Below, piece by piece: positions 15,587-61,106 of a stretch of 61,106 nucleotides of DNA (position 1 is its first letter; each line of letters opens with the position of its first letter). The translations under genes were made by a program, and so were the position numbers. Location: NCBI GenBank assembly GCA_017646685.1, contig JAGCLZ010000070.1:1-61106 (forward strand). Reading direction: 5' to 3'. The notes under the pieces are model-generated. The model did not search any database. It saw only the letters and a list, made by a program, of their open reading frames with translations, and was not told the origin of the DNA. The stretch is from Bacteroidales bacterium (GTDB lineage: Bacteria; Bacteroidota; Bacteroidia; Bacteroidales; P3).

Positions 15587-16172
15587 AAATTTTCTATTTT
15601 AATATGTTAGACACTAATTTATTTCTATTTTTTTGTTTCTACTTAATATGACAGAGTTTTTGAAATATCGGTTGTTAAATAAGTGTTAAATCTTTATTTT
15701 CTCTCGAAAATATTTTCTTCAATTACTTATTTCTCCACAACTCGGTGCACAAAAATGCTACAGTAATTTGTATATTAAAGCAATATAAATCAAATTATTG
15801 TGGATATATTGTGCCCAAAAACCCAATATATAATTATCTGCAAAGATATATTTTTTTTGCCATTGCTACAAGTATTTTCTTTTATAGTTTACACAAGATT
15901 TCAACATTCTTTGTGCATTTCATCTTATATTTTTCTATTTAACTGAAAATTAGTCTTGTATTGTGATGTTTTTTAGTTGATGTTTTATATGTTATCCAAT
16001 AGTATGTTATAAACTTATTTATAAGAAGGTTTTATTGGTTTTGTTATATAGGATAAAATATAATTGACCCATTGGATGAATTATATTTATTGCTGCATAA
16101 CTTTCTGAGTATAAACTTAAAATAATTATTTGATATGCAAATTAAAAAAAGCAAACGATGAAATGAAATTTG

Positions 16173-16252
16173 TATCACGAGGGAGATTCGTTTACATCAC
16201 GTAGTAGATGAACATAGATCGGGAGGAAAATTTATCTACATCACGATGTATT
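16173..16252. repeat. 22-bp direct array, GTGATG family (minus orientation)
   Basis: Four units whose CATCAC-like core (reverse complement GTGATG) begins at 16173, 16195, 16217 and 16239, an exact 22-bp spacing. The third core is diverged (GATCGG). Flanking bases include GAGGGAGATT and GGGAGGAAAATTT. In reverse complement the order of unit types (catcGTGATG, tcctCCCGATc, ctacGTGATG, ccctcGTGAT) matches the array at 46478-46549. Confidence 0.8.
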
Positions 16253-16304
16253 TTTGAGGGACTATATTGTCTGAAAATTGATGGTATATCATCACGCTCG
16301 TGAC

Positions 16305-16335
16305 ACCCTATTACGAAACAATTGACAATAGGGTA
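16305..16335. repeat. Conserved hairpin associated with the 22-bp array
   Basis: ACCCTAT...ATAGGGT inverted repeat around a loop of about 17 nt. Its reverse complement matches the hairpin at 46386-46419 almost base for base, including the loop (TTGTCAATWGTTTC), and it lies on the same side of the array at a similar distance. Confidence 0.7.
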
Positions 16336-16411
16336 TAAAAAAACATGTGAATATTATCAGGCAACTTATGAGAAATCCATGTTCTGAAATATTTCACTTC
16401 TACTTTGAATT

Positions 16412-27156: not shown

Positions 27157-27303
27157 TACTGTCTTTTCTGTTTTATGCCATATAACTGAAACATCATTCT
27201 TTTATTGTATTCATAAGGCGTTAACTTTGCAGATTGAGGATTATCTAAATCAGTCAAACCTATTTTTGTGGTAAACAATGCTTGCCGATAGGGATGAAAA
27301 ATG

Positions 27304-27380
27304 ACTCGTAATGTAGGTTAAACTCCATCGTGATGTAGTTGGATTTTCCTCGTGATGTAAATCAATCTCCCTCGTGATGC
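27304..27380. repeat. 22-bp direct array, GTGATG family (plus orientation)
   Basis: Core GTAATG or GTGATG at 27308, 27330, 27352 and 27374, exactly 22 bp apart, each preceded by a pyrimidine-rich TCCCTC-like stretch and followed by TAG/TAA. It is the same family as at 16.2 and 46.5 kb, but without an obvious copy of the associated hairpin. The last unit is about 35 bp upstream of the recA -33 element. Confidence 0.8.
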
Positions 27381-27412
27381 AGATAAAAGAGATAAAAAAT
27401 CTATCTCCGATA

Positions 27413-46028: not shown

Positions 46029-46385
46029 TTATTTTTATTTGTCTTTTATCTTTTATTACATTTTGGTAGATACTTATTATGGTATCATTTGATGTAAAAT
46101 AAAACAAATATCATATCACAATGTTTAGTGCGGTATATCGAATATGGTATTTGAATATATTTCCACAATATGTCTAATCAAAACTATTACAATGATTTTT
46201 GATACTCGTCGATTAGCAATATTGTTAATCAAAATTACATCGTTTTTTTTTCTCAAAATGAAATGCTGCTTTCTAATTTTCAACATAGGTATGTTAGCAG
46301 TGTGTTTGAATGAAAAAAGTTGTCTATTAAATAAAAATATGAAGTGTTTAGAAGTGTGATATAGCTCTTAAATGGTATTGAATTT

Positions 46386-46419
46386 ATACCCTATTGTCAA
46401 TAGTTTCATGATAGGGTAT
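46386..46419. repeat. Conserved hairpin next to the 22-bp array
   Basis: ATACCCTAT (46386-46394) pairs with ATAGGGTAT (46411-46419). Stem and loop correspond to the reverse complement of 16305-16335. Confidence 0.75.
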
Positions 46420-46467
46420 CATTGGCATGGCAGTATACCGTCAATAGGTATATGATATAGCCTTGAA

Positions 46468-46560
46468 AATTTCCTCGTGATGTAGTTGAAATTTCCTCCC
46501 GATGCCGATGAAGCTACTACGTGATGTAGATAAATCTCTCTCGCGATGTAAATTTTCTCT
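46468..46560. repeat. 22-bp direct array, GTGATG family (plus orientation)
   Basis: Cores at 46478 (GTGATG), 46500 (CCGATG), 46522 (GTGATG) and 46544 (GCGATG), exactly 22 bp apart, with the same order of variants as the 16.2 kb array read in reverse complement (tcctCCCGATg second, ctacGTGATGTAG third). Confidence 0.85.
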
Positions 46561-48765: not shown

Positions 48766-48828
48766 TATTTGGGCAGTGTGTAATTTATTTTTTTCCTCAT
48801 TATATCAGAAATTTCCCAAAAAAATTTG

Positions 48829-48836
48829 TACCTTTG
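48829..48836 (+). promoter_or_regulatory. -7 box for kamD
   Basis: TACCTTTG followed by CATT, 87 bp before the chosen ATG at 48924. An alternative in-frame ATG at 48870 lies between. Confidence 0.55.
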
Positions 48837-48923
48837 CATTCGATTTAGTGGGTCGATATTGCTCGAATATTGTCCCGTAAATATATTCATAAGTTTGATA
48901 TTCAAAAATATAAATTAAAAGAT

Positions 48924-50480
48924 ATGCAAAAGAGTAAAGTAGGCTTAGATTTTACAAAAGTAGAATATGCACGTGGTATAGCCAAAAAAATAGCCGACCA
49001 AGTACAAGATTTTGTTGGAAATTATACAACAGTAGCCGTTGAACGTACGCTATGTCGTTTGTTGGGAATAGATGGAGTAGATGCCAACGATGTGCCACTT
49101 CCAAACGTAGTGGTTGATGAATTGAAGGGCAAAGGTGTGCTTAACCAAGGTGTGATGTTCTACATTGGTAATGCAATGTTGGAAACCAAGCTTTCGGCAC
49201 AAGCCATTGCAGAACAAATGGCAGAAGGAAAGTTGGACGTAACCCAGCTGCCTCTACATACTGTTGAAGAGATAAAGAAGGCTTTGCAACCAACTATCGA
49301 CGCTACAATCGAGCGTATTCGCAACAACCGTTTGCGTCGCGAAAACTATATCAATACCATTGGCGAAGGCTCTAAACCTTATTTGTACATCATCGTTGCC
49401 ACCGGTAATATATACGAAGATGTGATACAAGCTCAAGCCGGAGCTCGCCAAGGTGCCGACATCATAGCAGTAATACGTACCACCGGTCAAAGTTTGTTGG
49501 ACTATGTGCCATACGGCGCTACCACCGAAGGCTTTGGAGGTACATTCGCTACTCAGGAAAACTTCCGCATTATGCGTAAAGCACTAGATGAAGTGGGAGA
49601 AGAAGTAGGCCGTTACATCCGTTTGTGCAACTACTGCTCCGGACTATGTATGCCCGAAATAGCAGCTATGGGTGCTTTGGAAGGTTTGGACGTTATGCTT
49701 AACGATGCTTTGTACGGAATCTTGTTCCGCGATATAAATATGCAACGTACTCTTATCGATCAATATTTCTCGCGTATAATCAACGGTTTTGCAGGTGTTA
49801 TTATCAACACAGGTGAGGATAACTACCTTACTACTGCCGATGCTTACGACGAAGCTCATACCGTATTGGCTTCCGATCTTATCAACGAACAGTTGGCTCT
49901 TTTGGCAGGTTTGCCCGAAGAACAAATGGGACTTGGTCATGCTTTCGAAATGAATCCGGAACTAGAAAATGGTTTCTTGTATGAGTTGGCTCAAGCTCAA
50001 ATGCTACGCGAAATATTCCCAAAAGCTCCTTTGAAATACATGCCTCCTACAAAATTTATGACAGGTAACATATTCAAAGGCCATATACAAGACGCCTTGT
50101 TCAACATGATTGGTATATGGACAAACCAAGGTTTGCAATTGTTGGGTATGCCTACCGAGGCTATACATACCCCATTTATGAGCGATCGTTACCTTGCAAT
50201 TGAAAATGCCAAATACATATTCGGCAATATGAAAAACATTGGCGATGAAGTAGAATTCAAAGACGGTGGTATAATCAAAACACGTGTTCAAGAGGTGTTG
50301 AACAACGCTACAACATTGCTCGAAAATATGGAAAAAGAAGGACTGTTCACCGCATTGGAAAAAGGTATATTTGGCAATGTGAAACGTCCAAAGAATGGCG
50401 GTAAAGGTTTGGATGGCGTTACCGAAAAGGGTGCCAACTACTTCAATCCGTTCGTTGACCTTATGAAAGGTAAGAAATAA
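48924..50480 (+). CDS. kamD: D-lysine 5,6-aminomutase alpha subunit
   Basis: 518 residues from ATG 48924 (MQKSKVGLDFTKVEYAR), near the 516 of characterised enzymes; the in-frame ATG at 48870 adds 18 residues not typical of the family. Diagnostic stretches: LYIIVATGNIYEDVIQAQA, VIRTTGQSLLDYVPYGATTEG, NYCSGLCMPEIAAMG, INTGEDNYLTTADA, MGLGHAFEMNP. The alpha subunit forms the TIM barrel that, with KamE (B12-binding), moves the terminal amino group of D-lysine or L-beta-lysine in lysine fermentation. Neither kamE nor other kam genes are adjacent: a terminator follows, then the BspA cluster. Confidence 0.93.
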   Translation: MQKSKVGLDFTKVEYARGIAKKIADQVQDFVGNYTTVAVERTLCRLLGIDGVDANDVPLPNVVVDELKGKGVLNQGVMFYIGNAMLETKLSAQAIAEQMAEGKLDVTQLPLHTVEEIKKALQPTIDATIERIRNNRLRRENYINTIGEGSKPYLYIIVATGNIYEDVIQAQAGARQGADIIAVIRTTGQSLLDYVPYGATTEGFGGTFATQENFRIMRKALDEVGEEVGRYIRLCNYCSGLCMPEIAAMGALEGLDVMLNDALYGILFRDINMQRTLIDQYFSRIINGFAGVIINTGEDNYLTTADAYDEAHTVLASDLINEQLALLAGLPEEQMGLGHAFEMNPELENGFLYELAQAQMLREIFPKAPLKYMPPTKFMTGNIFKGHIQDALFNMIGIWTNQGLQLLGMPTEAIHTPFMSDRYLAIENAKYIFGNMKNIGDEVEFKDGGIIKTRVQEVLNNATTLLENMEKEGLFTALEKGIFGNVKRPKNGGKGLDGVTEKGANYFNPFVDLMKGKK

Positions 50481-50594: not shown

Positions 50595-50835
50595 CCACTA
50601 TAAAAGTTCTCATCCCCCACTATAAAACTTCCTTTATACCATTATTAAAGTATATCCCAAGCTTTGGGACAAATATCCCAAGCTTTGGGACAAATATCCC
50701 AAGCTTTGGGATAAATATCCCAAGCCTTGGGACGAATATCCCAAGCCTTGGGATATAGAAATACTGTGGGGTTGGACAACTTTATTGGTAGGGTATGGAA
50801 ACTTTTATAGTAGGGTTTTGATGTTTTATAGCCAT
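50595..50835. repeat. Mirror-symmetric 21/22-bp array with palindromic centre
   Basis: Left arm CCACTATAAAA, CCACTATAAAA and CCATTATTAAA at 50595, 50617 and 50639 (22 bp apart). Centre: CCCAAGCTTTGGG or CCCAAGCCTTGGG at 50656, 50677, 50698, 50719 and 50740, exactly 21 bp apart. Right arm: AACTTTATTGG, AACTTTTATAG and TGTTTTATAG at 50778, 50800 and 50822 (22 bp apart), the left units inverted. The axis is near 50704. Confidence 0.9.
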
Positions 50836-50921: not shown

Positions 50922-50952
50922 TTTGCCAATCAAAAAATAAGTAGTACTTTTG
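50922..50952 (+). promoter_or_regulatory. Promoter of the BspA-like cluster
   Basis: TTTG at 50922-50925 and TACTTTTG at 50945-50952, spacer 19 bp. The ATG of the first gene is 47 bp downstream. No comparable box precedes the other four genes, which suggests one transcript. Confidence 0.65.
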
Positions 50953-50999: not shown

Positions 51000-53114
51000 A
51001 TGAAAAGACTATTCTTATTGTTATTTACCATTATATGTACAACTGTATGTTTGGCACAAGAAAGGTTTACCATAGGCGATTTGACCTATGAGGTGATAGA
51101 TTCGAATAGAGTGGAGGTAGATAGATGTAGCATTTCTGCCACCGCAGTAGTTATCCCCGACTCAGTGCAATTAGACGGAAAGACCTACACAGTTAGTCGC
51201 ATTGGAACCGAAGCTTTTAAGGATTGTAGTAGATTAGATTCGGTTATTATTCCATCAAGTGTTGCTACTATTGGAATGCATTCATTTTTGTGTTGTAGAA
51301 GGTTAAAATCAGTTGTTATCTCCTATGGCGTTAAAACTATTGGCTATGGTGCCTTCTCGGGATGCATTAGTTTAACTGCTATTGATATTCCTGTTAGCGT
51401 TGATTCAGTTGGAGCAAGTGCGTTTTACGGCTGTAATAGTTTGGAGGCAGTGGTTGTTCCCAATGGTGTTAGAAGTATTGGCGATGCAATGTTCTTTGAT
51501 TGCAATAGTTTGAATTTTATCTCTATTCCCGGTAGTGTTGGTTTTATTGGTTCGTATGCCTTTTACAACTGCAACAGTTTACATACAGTTCTGATTCCTC
51601 AAGGCGTTACCTCTATTGGATATGGTGCTTTCATCCGGTGTATGAATCTAACTATTGTTGATTTGCCCGGTAGCCTCAATTATATTGGCGATTACGCATT
51701 TGCCAAATGTGGTTGCTTAGACTCTGTTTGTATTCCAAGGGCTATTACTTCCATTGGTACAGCGGTATTTGATGGTTGTGTAAGTCTTACATCTGTTGTA
51801 TTGCCCGATAGTCTTATTTCAATTGGTGATGATGCCTTTTTGGGATGTAGAGGATTAACCTCGGTATCTATTCCCTCCACTGTTGCTACTATAGGAAACA
51901 ATGCGTTCAATAGTTGCGAGTCATTGTCTGCTATCATTATACCCAATAGCGTTACCACTATAGGTAAAGGAACATTCTCTTATTGTAACAATCTTAGTTC
52001 GGTGGTTATTCCAGACAGTGTTGTTACCATAGGCAAGAATGCTTTTTTCCGCCTAAGACACATCGTTTATCACGGCACAGCATCTGGTGCCCCATGGGGT
52101 GCATCGTTTATGAATGGGATTGTTGATGATGGATTTGTTTACGACGATAGTGTAGAGACGCTATTGTTGGGCTATGTTGGTAGCGAAGCAAATGTAGTTA
52201 TTCCCAATGGTGTAACAGCTATTGGCAAGGAGGCTTTTTGCCATTACCAAAGATTAATCTCGGTAAATATCCCCGCAAGTGTTGCAACCATAGGTGAAGG
52301 TGCTTTTTGGAATTGTAGAAACTTGAGCTATATCAATATTCCCAATGGCGTTGTTTCCATAGGCAGGGCTGCTTTTTTGGGATGCAGTAGTTTGACCTAT
52401 GTAGATATTCCCAATAGTGTTACATCCATTGGAGATGAAGCTTTTAACAAGTGTGATAATCTAATTAGGGTATCTCTTTCCGATAATATTGAGATTATAG
52501 AAGACAAATTGTTCTTCGAATGTAGCAATTTGCTGTCGGTAGATATTCCTAATGGAGTTACTACTATTAGAGGAAATGCTTTTCATTCATGTACCAATCT
52601 GCTTTCTGTTTCTATCCCGAATAGTGTTACATCTATTGGATATGGTGCCTTTAGAGGGTGCAAAAGTTTGACATCTGTAATTATTCCCGATGGAGTTATT
52701 ACTATTGGAGAGTTTGCATTCAATGGATGCAAGAGCTTGACTACTATAAGTATACCTTCCACTCTTTTATCTATCGGAGGGTTTACATTCAATGGATGTA
52801 AAAGTTTAACCTCCGTTGTTATTCCGGGTGGATTGACTACGCTAAAAACTCATGCGTTTTCAGGATGTAGTAATTTGTCATCATTTACTATTTCAAGCAC
52901 TGTTGTTTCGATAGGAAAATATGTACTTTCCAATTGCGATAATTTGAAAGAAATCATTTCGTATGCGACTAATCCTCCTACGCTTGATTATAAAGCATTT
53001 GCCCACATACCTACTACAACCATCCTCCAAGTTCCACGCGGTAGCCTGGAGAGATACAAAGCCTCCGATTGGAACAAGTACTTTGAAGGAAGAATCGTTG
53101 AAATAGAAGAATAA
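51000..53114 (+). CDS. BspA-like leucine-rich repeat protein 1
   Basis: 704 residues from ATG 51000; the longer in-frame reading from 50910 begins upstream of the promoter. Signal peptide (LFLLLFTIICTTVCLAQ), then the shared ERFTIGDLTYEVIDSN block. About 24 LRR_5/TpLRR units of about 23 residues follow (for example SLTSVIIPDGVITIGEFAF). One non-LRR insert lies near 355-395 (VYHGTASGAPWGASFMNGIVD). The C-terminal block TLQVPRGSLERYKASDWNKY ends IVEIEE. No T9SS tail is seen. Such proteins are typically exported and bind host matrix or other bacteria. It is the largest and first of five tandem paralogues. Its signal peptide differs from the next three. Confidence 0.9.
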   Translation: MKRLFLLLFTIICTTVCLAQERFTIGDLTYEVIDSNRVEVDRCSISATAVVIPDSVQLDGKTYTVSRIGTEAFKDCSRLDSVIIPSSVATIGMHSFLCCRRLKSVVISYGVKTIGYGAFSGCISLTAIDIPVSVDSVGASAFYGCNSLEAVVVPNGVRSIGDAMFFDCNSLNFISIPGSVGFIGSYAFYNCNSLHTVLIPQGVTSIGYGAFIRCMNLTIVDLPGSLNYIGDYAFAKCGCLDSVCIPRAITSIGTAVFDGCVSLTSVVLPDSLISIGDDAFLGCRGLTSVSIPSTVATIGNNAFNSCESLSAIIIPNSVTTIGKGTFSYCNNLSSVVIPDSVVTIGKNAFFRLRHIVYHGTASGAPWGASFMNGIVDDGFVYDDSVETLLLGYVGSEANVVIPNGVTAIGKEAFCHYQRLISVNIPASVATIGEGAFWNCRNLSYINIPNGVVSIGRAAFLGCSSLTYVDIPNSVTSIGDEAFNKCDNLIRVSLSDNIEIIEDKLFFECSNLLSVDIPNGVTTIRGNAFHSCTNLLSVSIPNSVTSIGYGAFRGCKSLTSVIIPDGVITIGEFAFNGCKSLTTISIPSTLLSIGGFTFNGCKSLTSVVIPGGLTTLKTHAFSGCSNLSSFTISSTVVSIGKYVLSNCDNLKEIISYATNPPTLDYKAFAHIPTTTILQVPRGSLERYKASDWNKYFEGRIVEIEE

Positions 53115-53260
53115 TAGTGTATATATATAATATAGTATAGCTATGAAGAGAATAATATTAAGCATAGTAGCAGTAGTTTGTGTAAATATCGGTTTGGCAC
53201 AAGAAAGGTTTACCATAGGCGATTTGACCTATGAGGTAATAGATTCGAATAGAGTGGAGG
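53025..53260 (+). repeat. Gene-junction direct repeat, copy 1
   Basis: Covers the 3' end of BspA gene 1, the intergenic leader and the 5' end of gene 2. Nearly identical to 54845-55092 and 56381-56610. Confidence 0.85.
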
Positions 53261-54936
53261 TAAGCGAATGCGACGATTACTCTACCGCAGTAGTTATCCC
53301 CGAAAAGGTAACAATAAAAGGTAAAACTTATATAGTTACTGTTATTGGTTATTGTGCTTTTCTAAATTCCGATACTTTAGAGTCGGTAGTTATCCCATCA
53401 AGTGTTACTACTATTTGTATGAATGCATTTAAGGGATGTAGGAAATTAGAATCAGTTCGGCTTTCAAATGGACTTAAAGCTATTTTAGATTATGCTTTTT
53501 ATGAATGTAGTAATCTGCGTTTTATTGATATTCCCAACAGTGTTGAAACTATTGGTATTGCAGTTTTTAAAGGGTGTAGTAGTTTTGATACCTTTGCCAT
53601 TCCGCCATCGGTGCGGAGTATAGGTACAAATGCATTTCATAATACAGCATTCTTCAATAATCAGAATAATTGGACCAACAAAGTTCTTTGCAAGGACAAT
53701 TGTCTTTTATCAGTCGATACTACTCTAAGTGGCGAGTATTCTATCGCAGAGGGTATACGGTTAATAGCCGGTGGTGCATTCGAAGAATGTAATGCTTTAA
53801 CGTCCGTTGTTATTTCCAATAGCGTTAAATCAATAGGACATTGTGCATTTGCTCATTGTGATAATCTAACTTCGATTAGCATTCCAAATAGTGTAAAGGA
53901 GATTGGAAGTGATGCATTTCGAGATTGTCGAAGTTTAATATCAGCTATAATTCCAGATAGTGTCAGTATTATTGAGAGTTTTGTATTTGAGGGTTGTAGT
54001 AGCTTAACATCGGTAGTAATTCATAATAATGTTGTAAGCATTGGATATGGAGCATTTGAAGCTTGTACTGCTCTAACCTCTTTTTCTATACCAAAATCTG
54101 TACAACATATAGATAATAGGGCTTTCATCAATACAGGATACTATAACGATAAATCTAATTGGAACGGTAATGTGTTGTATAAAGACGATTGCCTTTTAAG
54201 TGCAGATACTTTGATAAGTGGAGACTACATAGTAAATGAAAACACACAATTAATCTCAAATAGTGCATTCTCGGATTGTCATCGCTTGATTTCGGTTTCT
54301 TTGCCAAATAGTATTACCACAATTCCACATGGTATGTTTGTATATTGTTATAATTTGACCACAGTCAATATCCCAAACAGTATTGATACAATTGGAGAGA
54401 GTGCATTTTACTATTGTACTAAATTAGAATCAATAACTTTGCCTAGTAGTATTAATAGCATTGAATGTAACGCATTTTTTGGATGCTCAAGTTTAACTTC
54501 GATAAATCTTCCCGAAGGTATAACAAATATAGGTAGTGGAGTATTTATTGCATGCTCAAATTTAAGTGCATTATATATTCCTAATAGTGTTAAATCTATT
54601 GGAGAGTACGCCTTTATGGCTTGTACTAATCTTTCATCAATAAATATTACAGATAGTATTACTACTATTGAATATGCAACATTTTGGGATTGTAAAAACC
54701 TAAAGGATATTGTTATTCCTTCCAATGTATATACTATAAAAGACTATGCTTTTTATGGTTGCGACAATCTAGCAAATGTAATCTGCCTATCACAAGATCC
54801 ACCAATACTTGAAAAAGAAGTTTTCCCGTATCCCAACGCCACCACTCTCCAAGTTCCACGCGGTAGCCTGGAGAGATACAAAGCCTCCGATTGGAACAAG
54901 TACTTTGAAGGGAGAATCGTTGAAATAGAAGAATAG
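53143..54936 (+). CDS. BspA-like leucine-rich repeat protein 2
   Basis: 597 residues. Signal peptide MKRIILSIVAVVCVNIGLAQ is identical to genes 3 and 4. About 17 LRR_5 units. Two copies of a special insert interrupt them: NTAFFNNQNNWTNKVLCKDN... near 165-210 and NTGYYNDKSNWNGNVLYKDD... near 328-370, each with a short hydrophobic-polar segment (CLLSADT, IAEGIRLIAGGAF). The C-terminal block is shared. The last LRR and adjoining residues (FYGCDNLANVICLSQDPPIL) are nearly identical in DNA to gene 5. Gap to gene 1 is 28 bp with the leader repeat TAGTGTATATATATAATATAG. Confidence 0.9.
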   Translation: MKRIILSIVAVVCVNIGLAQERFTIGDLTYEVIDSNRVEVSECDDYSTAVVIPEKVTIKGKTYIVTVIGYCAFLNSDTLESVVIPSSVTTICMNAFKGCRKLESVRLSNGLKAILDYAFYECSNLRFIDIPNSVETIGIAVFKGCSSFDTFAIPPSVRSIGTNAFHNTAFFNNQNNWTNKVLCKDNCLLSVDTTLSGEYSIAEGIRLIAGGAFEECNALTSVVISNSVKSIGHCAFAHCDNLTSISIPNSVKEIGSDAFRDCRSLISAIIPDSVSIIESFVFEGCSSLTSVVIHNNVVSIGYGAFEACTALTSFSIPKSVQHIDNRAFINTGYYNDKSNWNGNVLYKDDCLLSADTLISGDYIVNENTQLISNSAFSDCHRLISVSLPNSITTIPHGMFVYCYNLTTVNIPNSIDTIGESAFYYCTKLESITLPSSINSIECNAFFGCSSLTSINLPEGITNIGSGVFIACSNLSALYIPNSVKSIGEYAFMACTNLSSINITDSITTIEYATFWDCKNLKDIVIPSNVYTIKDYAFYGCDNLANVICLSQDPPILEKEVFPYPNATTLQVPRGSLERYKASDWNKYFEGRIVEIEE

Positions 54937-55092
54937 TAGTGTATATATAAGTGTATATATATAATATAGTATAGATATGAAGAGAATAATATTAAGCATA
55001 GTAGCCGTAGTTTGTGTGAATATCGGCTTGGCACAAGAAAGGTTTACCATAGGCGATTTGACGTACGAGGTAATAGATTCGAATGAGGTGGA
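54845..55092 (+). repeat. Gene-junction direct repeat, copy 2
   Basis: Same composition at the gene 2/3 junction, with an extra GTGTATATATA in the leader. Confidence 0.85.
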
Positions 55093-56485
55093 AGTCTGCC
55101 AATGCGACACATCTGTAAATTCGGTATTTGTACCTGATATGGTGACAATAGAAAGTAAAAACTATGCAGTTACAGCTATTGGATTCGGTGCGTTTAATAA
55201 TTGTAGAAACTTAGTTTCGATAGATATATCAAATGGGATAAGGTATATTAAACCTTTTGCAATGGAAAAATGTACCAAACTGACAACAATAAACATTCCA
55301 AATAGTGTTACAGAAATTCATATAGGAGCATTTCAAGATTGTATAAGTTTGGAAACCTTTACTATTCCATCGTCTGTACAAAGAATAGCAGAAAAAGTAT
55401 TCTATAATACAGCATACTACAATAACAAGAATAATTGGAACAACGATGTTTTGTATAAAGATAATTGTCTATTAGTTGCCGATACGAATATAAGTGGCAA
55501 ATGCTCGATATTGGATAATACAAGATTGATAGCAACTAACGCCTTTATAGCTTGTACAAATTTAATAGTGATTGATATTCCACAAAGTGTTACTAAAATA
55601 AATCTTGGAGCCTTTCGAAATTGCATTAGTTTAAAATCGGTAATAATTCCTTCAAGTATCACTAATATTGAGACATCCTTGTTTGAAGGATGTTCTAGTT
55701 TAAATAATGTTGTTATTCCGCAAACTGTTAGAGAGATAGGTGTGTGTGCATTTTCTGATTGTATTAGTTTAACATCGATGATTATACCAAATGGTGTTAC
55801 AAGAATTGAATTTGCTACATTTTCTGGCTGTTCTAGTTTGACAGATATTACTCTACCAAGTAGTATTAAATCCATCGGATTGTCCTCTTTTTATAAATGT
55901 ATTAGTTTGAGGGCAATTGAAATACCTTATGGAGTTATAGGTATAGAGGAAAAAGCATTTTATGGTTGTGTAAGTTTATCGGCAATTAATATTCCCAATA
56001 CGGTTAAGACGATTGGGTATTCGGTATTTGCATATTGTGATTCCTTAACGGAGGTTGTAATTTCTAATAGTGTGAAAAATATCGGTAATGCTGTATTCTC
56101 GCACTGTAGTAAACTAACATCTGTTAAACTTTCTGATAGTATTGACGTTATTGGATACAATCTTTTTGATAGTTGTATTAATTTAAAATCTATTACAATT
56201 CCTAATCATGTTGAATATATTTGTCCGGATGCATTTGCCAATTGTATAAACTTAACAGATATTACTATTGGTAGTGGAGTGGATAGAATTGAATCATACT
56301 CATTCGAAACTAATAATTTAACTACCATAATAAGTCTATCGCAAAAACCACCGCGAATAGGAAACAAAGCGTTTCGTTATCCCAACGCCGCCACCCTTCA
56401 AGTTCCACGTGGTAGCCTGGAGAGATACAAAGCCTCCGATTGGAACAAGTACTTTGAAGGAAGAATCGTTGAAATAGAAGAATAA
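54977..56485 (+). CDS. BspA-like leucine-rich repeat protein 3
   Basis: 502 residues. Same signal peptide and ERFTIGDLTYEVIDSNEVEV block as gene 2. About 14 LRR_5 units, with one NTAYYNNKNNWNNDVLYKDN insert near 137-180. The shared tail TLQVPRGSLERYKASDWNKY ends IVEIEE. The leader upstream has a short tandem duplication of GTGTATATATA not found before the other genes. Very AT-rich. Confidence 0.9.
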   Translation: MKRIILSIVAVVCVNIGLAQERFTIGDLTYEVIDSNEVEVCQCDTSVNSVFVPDMVTIESKNYAVTAIGFGAFNNCRNLVSIDISNGIRYIKPFAMEKCTKLTTINIPNSVTEIHIGAFQDCISLETFTIPSSVQRIAEKVFYNTAYYNNKNNWNNDVLYKDNCLLVADTNISGKCSILDNTRLIATNAFIACTNLIVIDIPQSVTKINLGAFRNCISLKSVIIPSSITNIETSLFEGCSSLNNVVIPQTVREIGVCAFSDCISLTSMIIPNGVTRIEFATFSGCSSLTDITLPSSIKSIGLSSFYKCISLRAIEIPYGVIGIEEKAFYGCVSLSAINIPNTVKTIGYSVFAYCDSLTEVVISNSVKNIGNAVFSHCSKLTSVKLSDSIDVIGYNLFDSCINLKSITIPNHVEYICPDAFANCINLTDITIGSGVDRIESYSFETNNLTTIISLSQKPPRIGNKAFRYPNAATLQVPRGSLERYKASDWNKYFEGRIVEIEE

Positions 56486-56610
56486 TAGTGTATATATATA
56501 ATATAGTATAGATATGAAGAGAATAATATTAAGCATAGTAGCAGTAGTTTGTGTAAATATCGGTTTGGCACAAGAGAGGTTTACCATAGGCGATTTGACG
56601 TACGAGGTAA
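56381..56610 (+). repeat. Gene-junction direct repeat, copy 3
   Basis: Same composition at the gene 3/4 junction. Part of the tail block is repeated again at 57796-57887 and, less exactly, at 58775-58840. Confidence 0.85.
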
Positions 56611-57887
56611 AGAACAATGCGGAAGTGAAGGTACATAAGTGCAATAAGTCTGCAACAGAGGTGGATATTCCTACTAGTGTACGTTATAAATTAAGAAAAT
56701 ATGATGTTACAAGTATTGGCTTTGGGGCATTTGAGAATTGTACCGACCTGCTCTCTGTTGCTATACCCAATAGTATAAATGAAATAGAGGCTTGTGCTTT
56801 TTCGTACTGTACCGGTTTGACTTCGATAGATATTCCCAATACCATTTCAACAATCGAAACATATACCTTCAGAGCCTGTACTGCATTAAAGGAGATAAAT
56901 CTCCCGAATAGTGTTACTCACATAGAGCAAGGAGCGTTCTTTGATTGCATTAACACCGTTTCTATTACAGTTCCCAACAGCGTTGTAAGTATTGGTAGCT
57001 CAGCATTTGATAACTGTAGTAGTTTAGTATCTATCAATATTCCCGAAGGTATTGATACGATAGAGTATTCTGTATTTAATAATTGTAGAAGTCTTACTTC
57101 GATAACTATTCCCAATAGCGTTACTTATATTTCTACCGGAGCTTTCTATAAATGTACAAGTTTAGCTTCGTTTACAATTCCACAGTCGGTTCGGGGTATT
57201 GGTTGTGATGCTTTTTCATATACAGCCTTTTATAATGATAGTTCCAATTGGAATGGACATGTATTGTGTAAAGATAATTGTCTTTTAGAAGCAAGACGTG
57301 TAAAAGGCAAATATTCTGTTCCCAACAATATTCGATTAATAGCAGGTTCTGCTTTTTGGGACTGTGATAGTTTAATTTCAATTACCTTACACAAAGGAAT
57401 CACTAATATAAACAATAGTACATTCTCAGGATGTGAAAATTTAGTTTCAATTAATATTCCCAATACTGTTACATCTATTGGAGAGTCCGCATTCAGAGGA
57501 TGTGAAAGATTGGAGTCGATAATTATACCTGAAGGGGTTACTACTATAGGGATACATACATTCTGGTACTGTGAAAGTTTAGTTACAATTAATATCCCCG
57601 AAAGCGTTACTACTATAGGGTATGGAGCATTTAGCGGATGCAGAAAATTAAAGTCTATAACGATACCCAAGAATGTAAACTACATTGGTAATTTTGCATT
57701 CAATTATTATGATAGTAACTTAAGTACAATAATTTGTTTATCTACCGAACCGCCTATATTAGAAGGTAATGATGTATTTACTCGTAGCAATTCAACCACC
57801 CTCCAAGTTCCACGTGGTAGCCTGGAGAGGTACAAAGCCTCCGATTGGAACAAGTACTTTGAAGGAAGAATCGTTGAAATAGAATAG
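56514..57887 (+). CDS. BspA-like leucine-rich repeat protein 4
   Basis: 457 residues. Signal peptide identical to genes 2 and 3, ERFTIGDLTYEV then diverging (KNNAEVKVHKCNKSAT). About 13 LRR_5 units with one insert YTAFYNDSSNWNGHVLCKDN near 240-285. The tail ends IVEIE, one residue shorter than its sisters. Stop is 2 bp before the ATG of gene 5. Confidence 0.9.
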   Translation: MKRIILSIVAVVCVNIGLAQERFTIGDLTYEVKNNAEVKVHKCNKSATEVDIPTSVRYKLRKYDVTSIGFGAFENCTDLLSVAIPNSINEIEACAFSYCTGLTSIDIPNTISTIETYTFRACTALKEINLPNSVTHIEQGAFFDCINTVSITVPNSVVSIGSSAFDNCSSLVSINIPEGIDTIEYSVFNNCRSLTSITIPNSVTYISTGAFYKCTSLASFTIPQSVRGIGCDAFSYTAFYNDSSNWNGHVLCKDNCLLEARRVKGKYSVPNNIRLIAGSAFWDCDSLISITLHKGITNINNSTFSGCENLVSINIPNTVTSIGESAFRGCERLESIIIPEGVTTIGIHTFWYCESLVTINIPESVTTIGYGAFSGCRKLKSITIPKNVNYIGNFAFNYYDSNLSTIICLSTEPPILEGNDVFTRSNSTTLQVPRGSLERYKASDWNKYFEGRIVEIE

Positions 57888-57889
57888 TT

Positions 57890-58864
57890 ATGAAACAGAT
57901 AATATTTACAATAGTACTATTGTCAAACATATTAATAACATCGTGTACTGACAATCAATCAGCCTTGTCTATATCGACAAAAAATGTAGATAACAAAGAA
58001 ATAGCAGAACTGACTCAACAAAAAGAATACATTTATAAACCAACCGAGTTTACAATCGAAGATTTAACATACGAGGTAATAGATACAAACAAAGTTGCTA
58101 TAATAAGATGTAATACATCTGTTACAGATATAGATATTCCCACTATTGTAATGCACGATAGTATAGAGTATAAAATCGTTAGCATTGAATGTGATGCATT
58201 TTGTGAATGTGTCAAATTAAAATCTATTACTATTCCCGATGGATTAACTTGTATAAACGATAATACGTTCTACAATTGCATCAGTCTCTCATCGGTAACT
58301 ATTCCTAACTCTGTTACTCGTATAGGTGAGGGCGCTTTTAGATATTGTACTAGTCTTGTATCTATATATATACCTAATAGTATTCAGACTATAGATAATT
58401 ATGCTTTTGCCAATTGTACCAAACTAGAATCGATAAATATACCTAATGGTGTAAAGTTAATAGGAAGTGGTGTATTCAACGAATGTGAAAGTTTAACCTC
58501 TATAATTATTCCAAGTAAACTAAGCCTAATAAAGAGTGCTACATTTAGAAAATGTAAAAACTTAACATCTATCGTTATTCCTAATAATATAGAGGAAATT
58601 AGAAAAATATCGTTTTCGGAATGTATAAATTTACTCACAGTTACAATAGGTAAAGGTGTTCGTAATATAAGAACAACAGCTTTTTATGGTTGCGACAATC
58701 TAGCAAATGTAATCTGCCTATCACAAGATCCACCAATACTTGAAGAAGAAGTTTTCCCGTATCCCAACGCCGCCACACTTCAAGTTCCACGCGGCAGCCT
58801 GGAGAGATACAAAGCTTCCGATTGGAACAACTACTTCTCCCGCATTGAAGAGATTGACGATTGA
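57890..58864 (+). CDS. BspA-like leucine-rich repeat lipoprotein 5
   Basis: 324 residues. Unlike the others it has a lipoprotein signal (MKQIIFTIVLLSNILITSC; Cys19 is the lipidation site) and a linker (TDNQSALSISTKNVDNKEIAELTQQ) before a diverged TIEDLTYEVIDTN block. About 8 LRR_5 units and no NW insert. The tail reads TLQVPRGSLERYKASDWNNY, then FSRIEEIDD. The lipid anchor suggests it tethers to a membrane while the other four are released or bound otherwise (inference). It is the last of the cluster; clpB starts 110 bp downstream. Confidence 0.88.
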   Translation: MKQIIFTIVLLSNILITSCTDNQSALSISTKNVDNKEIAELTQQKEYIYKPTEFTIEDLTYEVIDTNKVAIIRCNTSVTDIDIPTIVMHDSIEYKIVSIECDAFCECVKLKSITIPDGLTCINDNTFYNCISLSSVTIPNSVTRIGEGAFRYCTSLVSIYIPNSIQTIDNYAFANCTKLESINIPNGVKLIGSGVFNECESLTSIIIPSKLSLIKSATFRKCKNLTSIVIPNNIEEIRKISFSECINLLTVTIGKGVRNIRTTAFYGCDNLANVICLSQDPPILEEEVFPYPNAATLQVPRGSLERYKASDWNNYFSRIEEIDD

Positions 58865-58974: not shown

Positions 58975-61106
58975 ATGAATCTAAACAATTTCACAATCAA
59001 GTCGCAGGAGGCTATACAGAAGTCGCAGGAGATAGCTCTTTCGTATCAGAACCAGTCCATAGAGTGTGTACACATATTGAAGGGTATCTTTCATGTGGAC
59101 GAAAACATTGTGCCTTACCTGCTTAAGAAGATGGGCGTGAATGTCTCGCTTATGCAGCAGGCTGTGGATAAAATAATCACATCGTTGCCCAAAGTGGTGG
59201 GTGGCAATCAGTATCTTAGTTCCGAAGCCAATCAGATGTTGGTAAAGTCCACACAGATAGCTACCGATATGGGCGATGAGTTTGTGTCCATCGAGCATTT
59301 GCTGTTGGCTATGCTTAAGGCCAAGGACACTGTGGCTACGCTGTTTAAGGATGCCGGAGTAACCGAAAAGGCTTTGCAGGCTGCTATTGCCGACCTTAGA
59401 AAAGGTTCGAAGGTAACGTCGCAGTCGGCGGAGGATACCTACAATGCTTTGAGCAAATATGCCAAGAACCTGAACCAATTGGCACAGAGTGGTAAGCTGG
59501 ACCCCGTGATAGGTCGCGACGAAGAGATACGCCGTGTGCTGCAAATACTTTCGCGACGCACCAAGAACAACCCTATACTGATAGGCGAACCCGGTGTGGG
59601 CAAGACTGCCATTGCCGAAGGATTGGCACACAGAATAGTGAGCGGCGATGTGCCCGAAAACTTAAAAACCAAGACCATTTACTCGTTGGACATGGGTGCT
59701 CTGATAGCCGGTGCCAAATACAAAGGCGAGTTTGAAGAGCGATTGAAGAGCGTGATACGCGAGATAAACGAAGCCGATGGCGAGATAATTCTTTTTATCG
59801 ACGAGATACATACCCTTGTGGGTGCCGGTGGCGGCGAGGGTGCCATGGATGCCGCCAATATTCTGAAGCCGGCATTGGCTCGTGGCGAGCTGAGAGCTGT
59901 TGGGGCTACTACGCTAAACGAATATCAGAAATATTTCGAAAAAGACAAGGCTTTGGAGCGTAGGTTTCAAAGTGTGTTGATCGACGAGCCCGATGTGGCC
60001 GACACCATTTCCATACTTCGTGGATTGAAGGAACGCTACGAGGTGCACCACAAAGTGCATATCAAGGACGAGGCCATTATAGCAGCGGCAGAGTTGTCGC
60101 ACCGCTATATCACCGACCGTTTCTTGCCCGACAAAGCCATCGACCTTATCGACGAGGCTGCTGCCAAGTTGCGGTTGGAGATAGACTCGGTGCCCGAAGA
60201 GTTGGACGAGATAGAGCGTCGAATACGTCAGCTGGAGATAGAGCGTGAGGCTATAAAGCGCGAGAACGATACCGAGAAACTGCACAACCTAGCTCAAGAG
60301 ATTGCCAACCTAAGCGAAGAACGCAACAAGATGAAGGCCAAATGGCAGTCGGAAAAGAATATAGTGGAAAAGATTCAGGAAGAAGGAAAGAACATTGAAA
60401 CCTACAAGTTCGAGGCTGAGCAAGCCGAAAGGGTAGGGGACTATGGCAAAGTGGCCGAACTACGCTACGGCAAGATAAAGGAAGCCGAACGAACGGTGGA
60501 AGAGCTGAAGCAGAACCTCAAAGACATGCAGGCCGATAGTGCTATGATAACCGAAGAAGTGGATAGCGAGCAGATAGCCGAAGTGGTTTCCCGTTGGACC
60601 GGTATACCTGTAACTCGTATGCTGCAAAGCGAAAAGGAAAAGCTACTGAGCTTGGAAACGGAGATGCACAAACGGGTGGTGGGACAAAACGAAGCCATCG
60701 ACGTTATAGCCAATGCCATACGCCGAAACCGTACAGGACTTAGCGACGGCAAACGCCCTATAGGCTCCTTCATATTCTTGGGAACCACCGGCGTGGGCAA
60801 GACCGAGTTGGCTCGTACATTGGCCGAAACTCTCTTCGACGACGAGAATATGATGGTGCGTATCGATATGTCCGAGTATCAGGAACGCCATTCGGTGTCG
60901 CGTCTTATAGGTGCGCCTCCGGGATATGTGGGCTACGACGAAAGCGGACAACTTACCGAGGCTGTGCGTCGCAAACCATACTCTATTGTCCTCTTCGACG
61001 AGATAGAGAAGGCTCATCCCGATGTGTTCAACATACTGCTCCAAGTGCTGGAAGATGGCAGACTTACGGATAACAAGGGACGTATTGCCGACTTTAAGAA
61101 CACCAT
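58975..61106 (+). CDS. clpB: ClpB disaggregase, 3' end outside the window
   Basis: 710 residues are visible, in frame from ATG 58975 to the window edge without a stop. N domain (1-145), first AAA+ with [13 protein letters not shown] (about 204-216) and [12 protein letters not shown], a long coiled-coil middle domain (about 400-530: [18 protein letters not shown]) that is the mark of ClpB against ClpC, and second AAA+ beginning [17 protein letters not shown], with [15 protein letters not shown]. The second Walker A reads GTTGVGKT where most ClpB have GPTGVGKT; the consensus still holds. It works with DnaK to rescue aggregates. Base composition is richer in G+C than the BspA genes before it. 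Confidence 0.95.

Follow-up and report, generated by a model that had tools for sequence, protein, structure and literature searches.

How can five neighbouring genes be nearly identical at their ends and so different in their centres? The question is raised by an array of genes for BspA-type LRR proteins in a Bacteroidales genome, G000. The window comprises all 61,106 bases of one contig (C82) of this genome, the assembly of which amounts to 2.45 Mb in 169 contigs. Among the other genomes of the same genus, G001, G002, G003 and G005 carry arrays as well, and all array comparisons were made with one genome per species. The compared genomes appear to be MAGs, the sheep rectum and colon records that match G002 and G001 being titled as such. 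DNA identity to the window was about 88-91% for G001 and, over a 15.7-kb housekeeping stretch of the window, 65-85% for G002 to G005. Arrays of this type were present in five of the six same-genus genomes; with a C-terminal query of 34 residues, relatives were obtained in the same proportion (5/6) and, as a weak match, in a single further genome of the family among the 190 genomes searched.

Constant gene ends and variable cores

The five array genes are all intact and co-directional (51000-58864), with a lysine 5,6-aminomutase gene on the left and clpB on the right. The features are as follows:

48870..50480, + strand, left flank, lysine 5,6-aminomutase alpha subunit (KamD-like; NCBIfam NF052384 equivalog, 929.7 bits versus a cut-off of 600)
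50652..50756, no strand, five 21-bp near-palindromic tandem repeats (ATATCCCAAGCTTTGGGACAA; CCCAAGCTTTGGGA), 5' of the array promoter-like site
50922..50952, + strand, Bacteroidetes-type promoter-like site TTTG-N19-TACTTTTG, by motif match only
51000..53114, + strand, gene 1 (A1), BspA-type LRR protein, 704 aa, own leader (MKRLFLLLFTIICTTVCLAQ)
53020..53239, + strand, junction repeat J1, gene 1 3' end, spacer and gene 2 leader
53143..54936, + strand, gene 2 (A2), BspA-type LRR protein, 597 aa
54842..55084, + strand, junction repeat J2, spacer with a 12-bp insertion
54977..56485, + strand, gene 3 (A3), BspA-type LRR protein, 502 aa
56391..56610, + strand, junction repeat J3, 97% identical to J1
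56514..57887, + strand, gene 4 (A4), BspA-type LRR protein, 457 aa
57796..57884, + strand, half junction J4, common 3' end only
57890..58864, + strand, gene 5 (A5), BspA-type LRR protein, 324 aa, lipoprotein-like start (LITSC)
58975..61106, + strand, right flank, ClpB, cut by the contig end

The sole strict Bacteroidetes-type promoter match of the array was the putative site upstream of gene 1, which is kept in G001, and no such match was found in the internal junctions. Related but diverged copies of the 21-bp repeats occupy the equivalent place in G001. Generic sigma-70 and terminator scans did no better than on shuffled sequence, and an Rfam search of the window gave no match.

Alignment of the junctions showed 93.3% identity between J1 and J2 over 254 bp with one 12-bp indel, 96.8% between J1 and J3 over 220 bp and 95.7% between J2 and J3 over 233 bp. 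J4 is limited to the 3' half (89-92 bp at 96-98%), since the start of gene 5 is of another, lipoprotein-like kind. The non-coding spacer within the junctions was as similar as the coding ends. The exceptions to the alike ends are the leader of gene 1 and, in gene 5, the leader and the last ~25 bp, while genes 2 and 5 have a longer 3' tract in common (158 bp at 95.6%). The proteins encoded by the cores, on the other hand, had 39-48% amino-acid identity and dS values of 1.3-2.7, as compared to 0.12-0.28 for most homologous gene ends. The protein sequence of the ends is nearly invariant, yet synonymous changes are present; the conserved spacer and the low dS of the ends go beyond what protein constraint alone explains. 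The ORFs, the junction identities and the dS values thus confirmed the description in the first-pass annotation of a five-gene BspA-like array with near-identical gene ends and variable LRR cores, and its junction repeats, said to cover 3' end, leader and 5' end three times, were recovered as tracts of 220-254 bp at 93-97%. Its LRR unit counts of about 24, 17, 14, 13 and 8 held for genes 1 and 4 but not for genes 2, 3 and 5, a rough recount giving 24, 19, 17, 13 and 9.

Plain tandem duplication was rejected as an explanation, since the array genes, with ends at 93-98% and core proteins at 39-48% identity, are not alike along their length. A tandem pair of LRR genes elsewhere in the same genome (L015, 371-3981), with T9SS-like C-termini, served as control. 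This pair is an ordinary recent duplication and was 90% identical over its whole length; likeness confined to the ends is therefore not what plain duplication gives in this genome.

All five gene products matched LRR_5 (PF13306) with 282-580 bits (cut-off 27.7), and Pfam returned LRR-type and other repeat models only. Polymorphic toxins, which combine a constant N-terminal part with a variable C-terminal toxin domain, were considered and discarded, as the array genes are constant at both ends, variable in the centre and matched by LRR and repeat models alone. The structure model of the gene 4 product (pLDDT 93.4) has an N-terminal strand cap, a solenoid and a C-terminal cap. Its top fold match was 4fs7 (Z 33.6 over 380 residues, rmsd 10.4, 32% identity), and comparison with 6mlx gave Z 27.3 and rmsd 2.0. 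If this predicted fold holds, the secretion signal and the caps would lie in the constant ends and the solenoid in the variable part. By eye, a signal peptide or lipobox was recognized in the array proteins, the secretion of which is a prediction only. With B. ovatus BACOVA_04585 (4fs7), Treponema pallidum TpLRR (6mlx) and T. forsythia BspA, the array proteins share the BspA-like/LRR_5 family, the 23-residue unit and the solenoid; they differ from other LRR proteins of G000, which have a T9SS-like C-terminus that the array proteins lack.

Arrays and whole genes common to distant species

G000 holds a second type of array (L009), with three genes, a different set of ends and the same layout. 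Genes of the window type are called A (A1 to A5 in the window) and those of the second type B, with a prefix for the genome (G0_B2). The G001 array (L051) has the KamD-like gene as left flank, as in the window. Its gene 1 was 95.6% identical to window gene 1 over the first 206 bp and 84% over the last ~312 bp, and kept the promoter-like site; the two cores have nothing in common but the LRR pattern. Downstream of this gene lie a non-LRR gene, a residual 3' end and a further gene start, of which 77 bp precede the contig end inside the array; these matched array gene 2 of G002 at every position (77/77). The G002 array has three genes and also ends at clpB, with MiaA, not the KamD-like gene, as left neighbour. 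The last array genes of G000 and G002 have a common C-terminal tail that is absent from the other genes, with different cores, as expected if the flanks anchor the array ends. Arrays of the second type adjoin MiaB and FtsY in G003 and G005, so that this type occupied three different loci in three species. No array was found next to clpB in G003 and G005, at the site of the array-flanking gene for a 398-aa membrane protein in G002, G003 and G005, next to MiaB in G000 and G005, or next to FtsY in G000, G001 and G003.

Four array genes were shared between species. DNA identity was 96.7% over 1899 bp for G0_B2/G5_B2, 98.4% over 2139 bp for G0_B3/G3_B1, 98.3% over 1494 bp for G3_B2/G5_B4 and 96-97% over 848 plus 317 bp for G0_A4/G2_A1, that is, window gene 4 and the first G002 array gene. 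The dS values of these four were 0.026-0.059, against a background in the equal species pairs of mostly 1.0-2.4 for KamD, MiaB, FtsY and an outer-membrane gene. The shared tracts, with bounds taken from BLAST, span one gene and at most ~190 bp of the neighbouring gene end. The closest pairs, G000-G001 and G002-G003, had no complete array gene in common, contrary to what vertical descent would give. Recent gene exchange between otherwise quite distant species is well supported. Amino-acid changes in the shared genes showed a trend only towards variable LRR positions (16/462 versus 7/504, P = 0.055).

Window gene 4 and its G002 relative differ by an internal LRR block that has one unit fewer in G002 and lies between sides that are 96% identical, a difference that fits a putative recombination inside the core. 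In the G002 gene (L052, ~8940), a frameshift lies beside a stretch of eight A, on the right-hand border of the replaced block, and may represent decay, slippage or an assembly error. The proposal that recombination takes place within the LRR cores gained from this block and from the core of gene 1, apparently swapped in G001. The broader claim, that recombination generates diversity, is supported and reaches further than the annotation supposed: gene number, order and cores differ between related species, and whole genes are common to distant ones. Identical gene number and cores, the outcome that would have spoken against it, were not seen across the species compared (one genome each).

Outside the arrays, the dS of clpB from G000 was 0.27 to G002, 0.37 to G003 and 1.47 to G005. 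The low value for G003, although this genome has no array at clpB, means that exchange is not confined to array loci. Parts of the KamD region (window 48785-50434) were up to 99-100% identical to G001, and the sequence just upstream 85-93%. The raised identity in parts of KamD and in clpB hints at exchange tracts reaching into the flanks.

Proposed exchange through conserved ends and other readings

We conclude that the array is probably part of a genus-wide pool of BspA-type LRR genes, with the conserved ends providing the homology for swapping genes or cores. In each gene of the pool, a variable LRR solenoid would be framed by two near-constant ends, the 5' end with leader and N-terminal cap and the 3' end with the C-terminal cap. 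Wherever two genes or arrays meet, these repeated ends and the spacers would give homology, and ordinary homologous recombination, with RecA and the junction repeats as presumed drivers, could insert, delete or replace a whole gene. Alternatively, only the core might be swapped, with the resident promoter, leader and tail retained. Donor sequences could come from within the array or enter as DNA of another species. If the proteins are exposed at the surface, the benefit may be a changing set of binding surfaces. The founding of arrays at new, non-orthologous loci, as for the B type, needs some further step beyond homologous recombination at the conserved ends.

Gut Bacteroidales possess many BspA-like LRR proteins. 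The locus offers a testable case in which genes of predicted secreted LRR proteins have seemingly been exchanged whole within a genus while the housekeeping genes are far apart, the constant gene ends being the likely sites of recombination. Through this locus, a large family of proteins that presumably bind host or microbes would be linked to rapid sharing in the gut community.

Gene conversion within each genome could also keep the ends alike, the arrays being otherwise static and sharing across species rare and incidental. The ends are indeed alike inside each genome, and the 158-bp tract of genes 2 and 5 is in line with conversion; A-type tails, however, were no more alike within genomes (mean similarity 0.863) than between them (0.889), and sharing that involves four genes and the start of a fifth in five genomes is not rare. 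We consider this reading unlikely.

Chimeric assembly is the main caveat on the exchange reading: assemblers may have joined genes of co-resident species at the repeated ends and thereby mimicked both arrays and sharing. Repeats are a known cause of mis-joins, the genomes are apparently MAGs, and the G001 contig ends within its array. An artefact nonetheless seems improbable, given that the same architecture recurs in five separate genomes and that the G000 and G001 arrays have a common left flank. The longest exact match between window junctions was 101 bp, so that the repeated ends are short enough for ordinary reads to span, and the shared genes differ by 1.6-3.8% and hence are not copies of one assembled sequence.

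We likewise attach little probability to a dedicated mobile element or site-specific recombinase that moves the cassettes. The different loci of the B-type arrays in three species would suit such an element, as would a ~170-bp dispersed repeat directly after the G000 B array, but no obvious recombinase or transposase was seen by eye in the ORF lists beside the arrays. No relatives turned up in phage and plasmid records, for which the joined gene ends served as query, or in viral contigs, which were queried with an alignment and with two proteins, an LRR protein and the non-LRR one.

Least probable is an old tandem duplication in which purifying selection fixed the ends (signal and caps) and let the cores drift, with no special recombination, since the coincidence of the ends with leader and caps in the gene 4 model and their nearly invariant protein sequence despite synonymous changes would agree with it, but the equal conservation of the spacer, the low dS of the ends relative to the cores and the 96-98% whole-gene identity across distant species would not.

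Several known systems resemble the proposed pool of exchangeable genes. Recombining surface-protein gene arrays of pathogens and commensals have tandem paralogues with conserved ends and variable centres that are replaced by recombination. This layout recurs here, and so, as proposed, would the replacement; the exchange is apparently between species of a genus and at different loci. Antigenic variation with silent cassettes relies on one expressed copy and on promoterless silent copies that replace it. The window array has one promoter-like site, but its five genes are all intact and co-directional. PARCEL repeat proteins (Roske et al. 2010, PMC2996958) are likewise variable and belong to microbial surfaces; their tandem paralogues occupy sites that are 'empty' in a related genome, from which horizontal and intragenomic mobilisation was inferred (PMC2996958). 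The arrays compared here, too, consist of variable repeat-protein paralogues with array-free sites in relatives. PARCEL is, however, defined by dyad symmetry inside the repeat DNA, whereas here the constant parts are the gene ends and the spacer. The PARCEL model TIGR02167 gave 32.9, 49.4 and 31.2 bits for genes 2, 4 and 5 (cut-off 30), with no single stretch passing; gene 1 was not among the matches listed, and the scan did not include gene 3. A literature search found no paper on BspA-type gene arrays with shared ends, or on their exchange between species, in Bacteroidales.

A non-LRR module and a dispersed repeat

Two array genes contain a non-LRR module:

L051 7039-7953, G001 non-LRR array gene, lipoprotein-like protein of two joined modules
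L054 7384-7887, - strand, G003 last array gene, array leader and non-LRR module

The module of the G003 gene corresponds to the second half of the G001 protein (140 aa, 65% identical), and the array leader has become fused to it in G003. Relatives of the first half of the G001 protein are widespread in the family. The module had no Pfam or NCBIfam match and no meaningful PDB match. Tentatively, the conserved ends might act as a genus-wide adaptor standard, such that any module flanked by them, LRR or not, could be plugged into arrays at different sites and in different species, the arrays being open sockets for trading secreted binding proteins.

The ~170-bp repeat is intergenic, with ATCACG-rich motifs and a terminal hairpin; it had no match in Rfam, and its full copies were 75-77% identical. 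Copies were located as follows:

window 16170-16341
window 46383-46551, inverted
window 27297-27387, partial
L009 9534-9705
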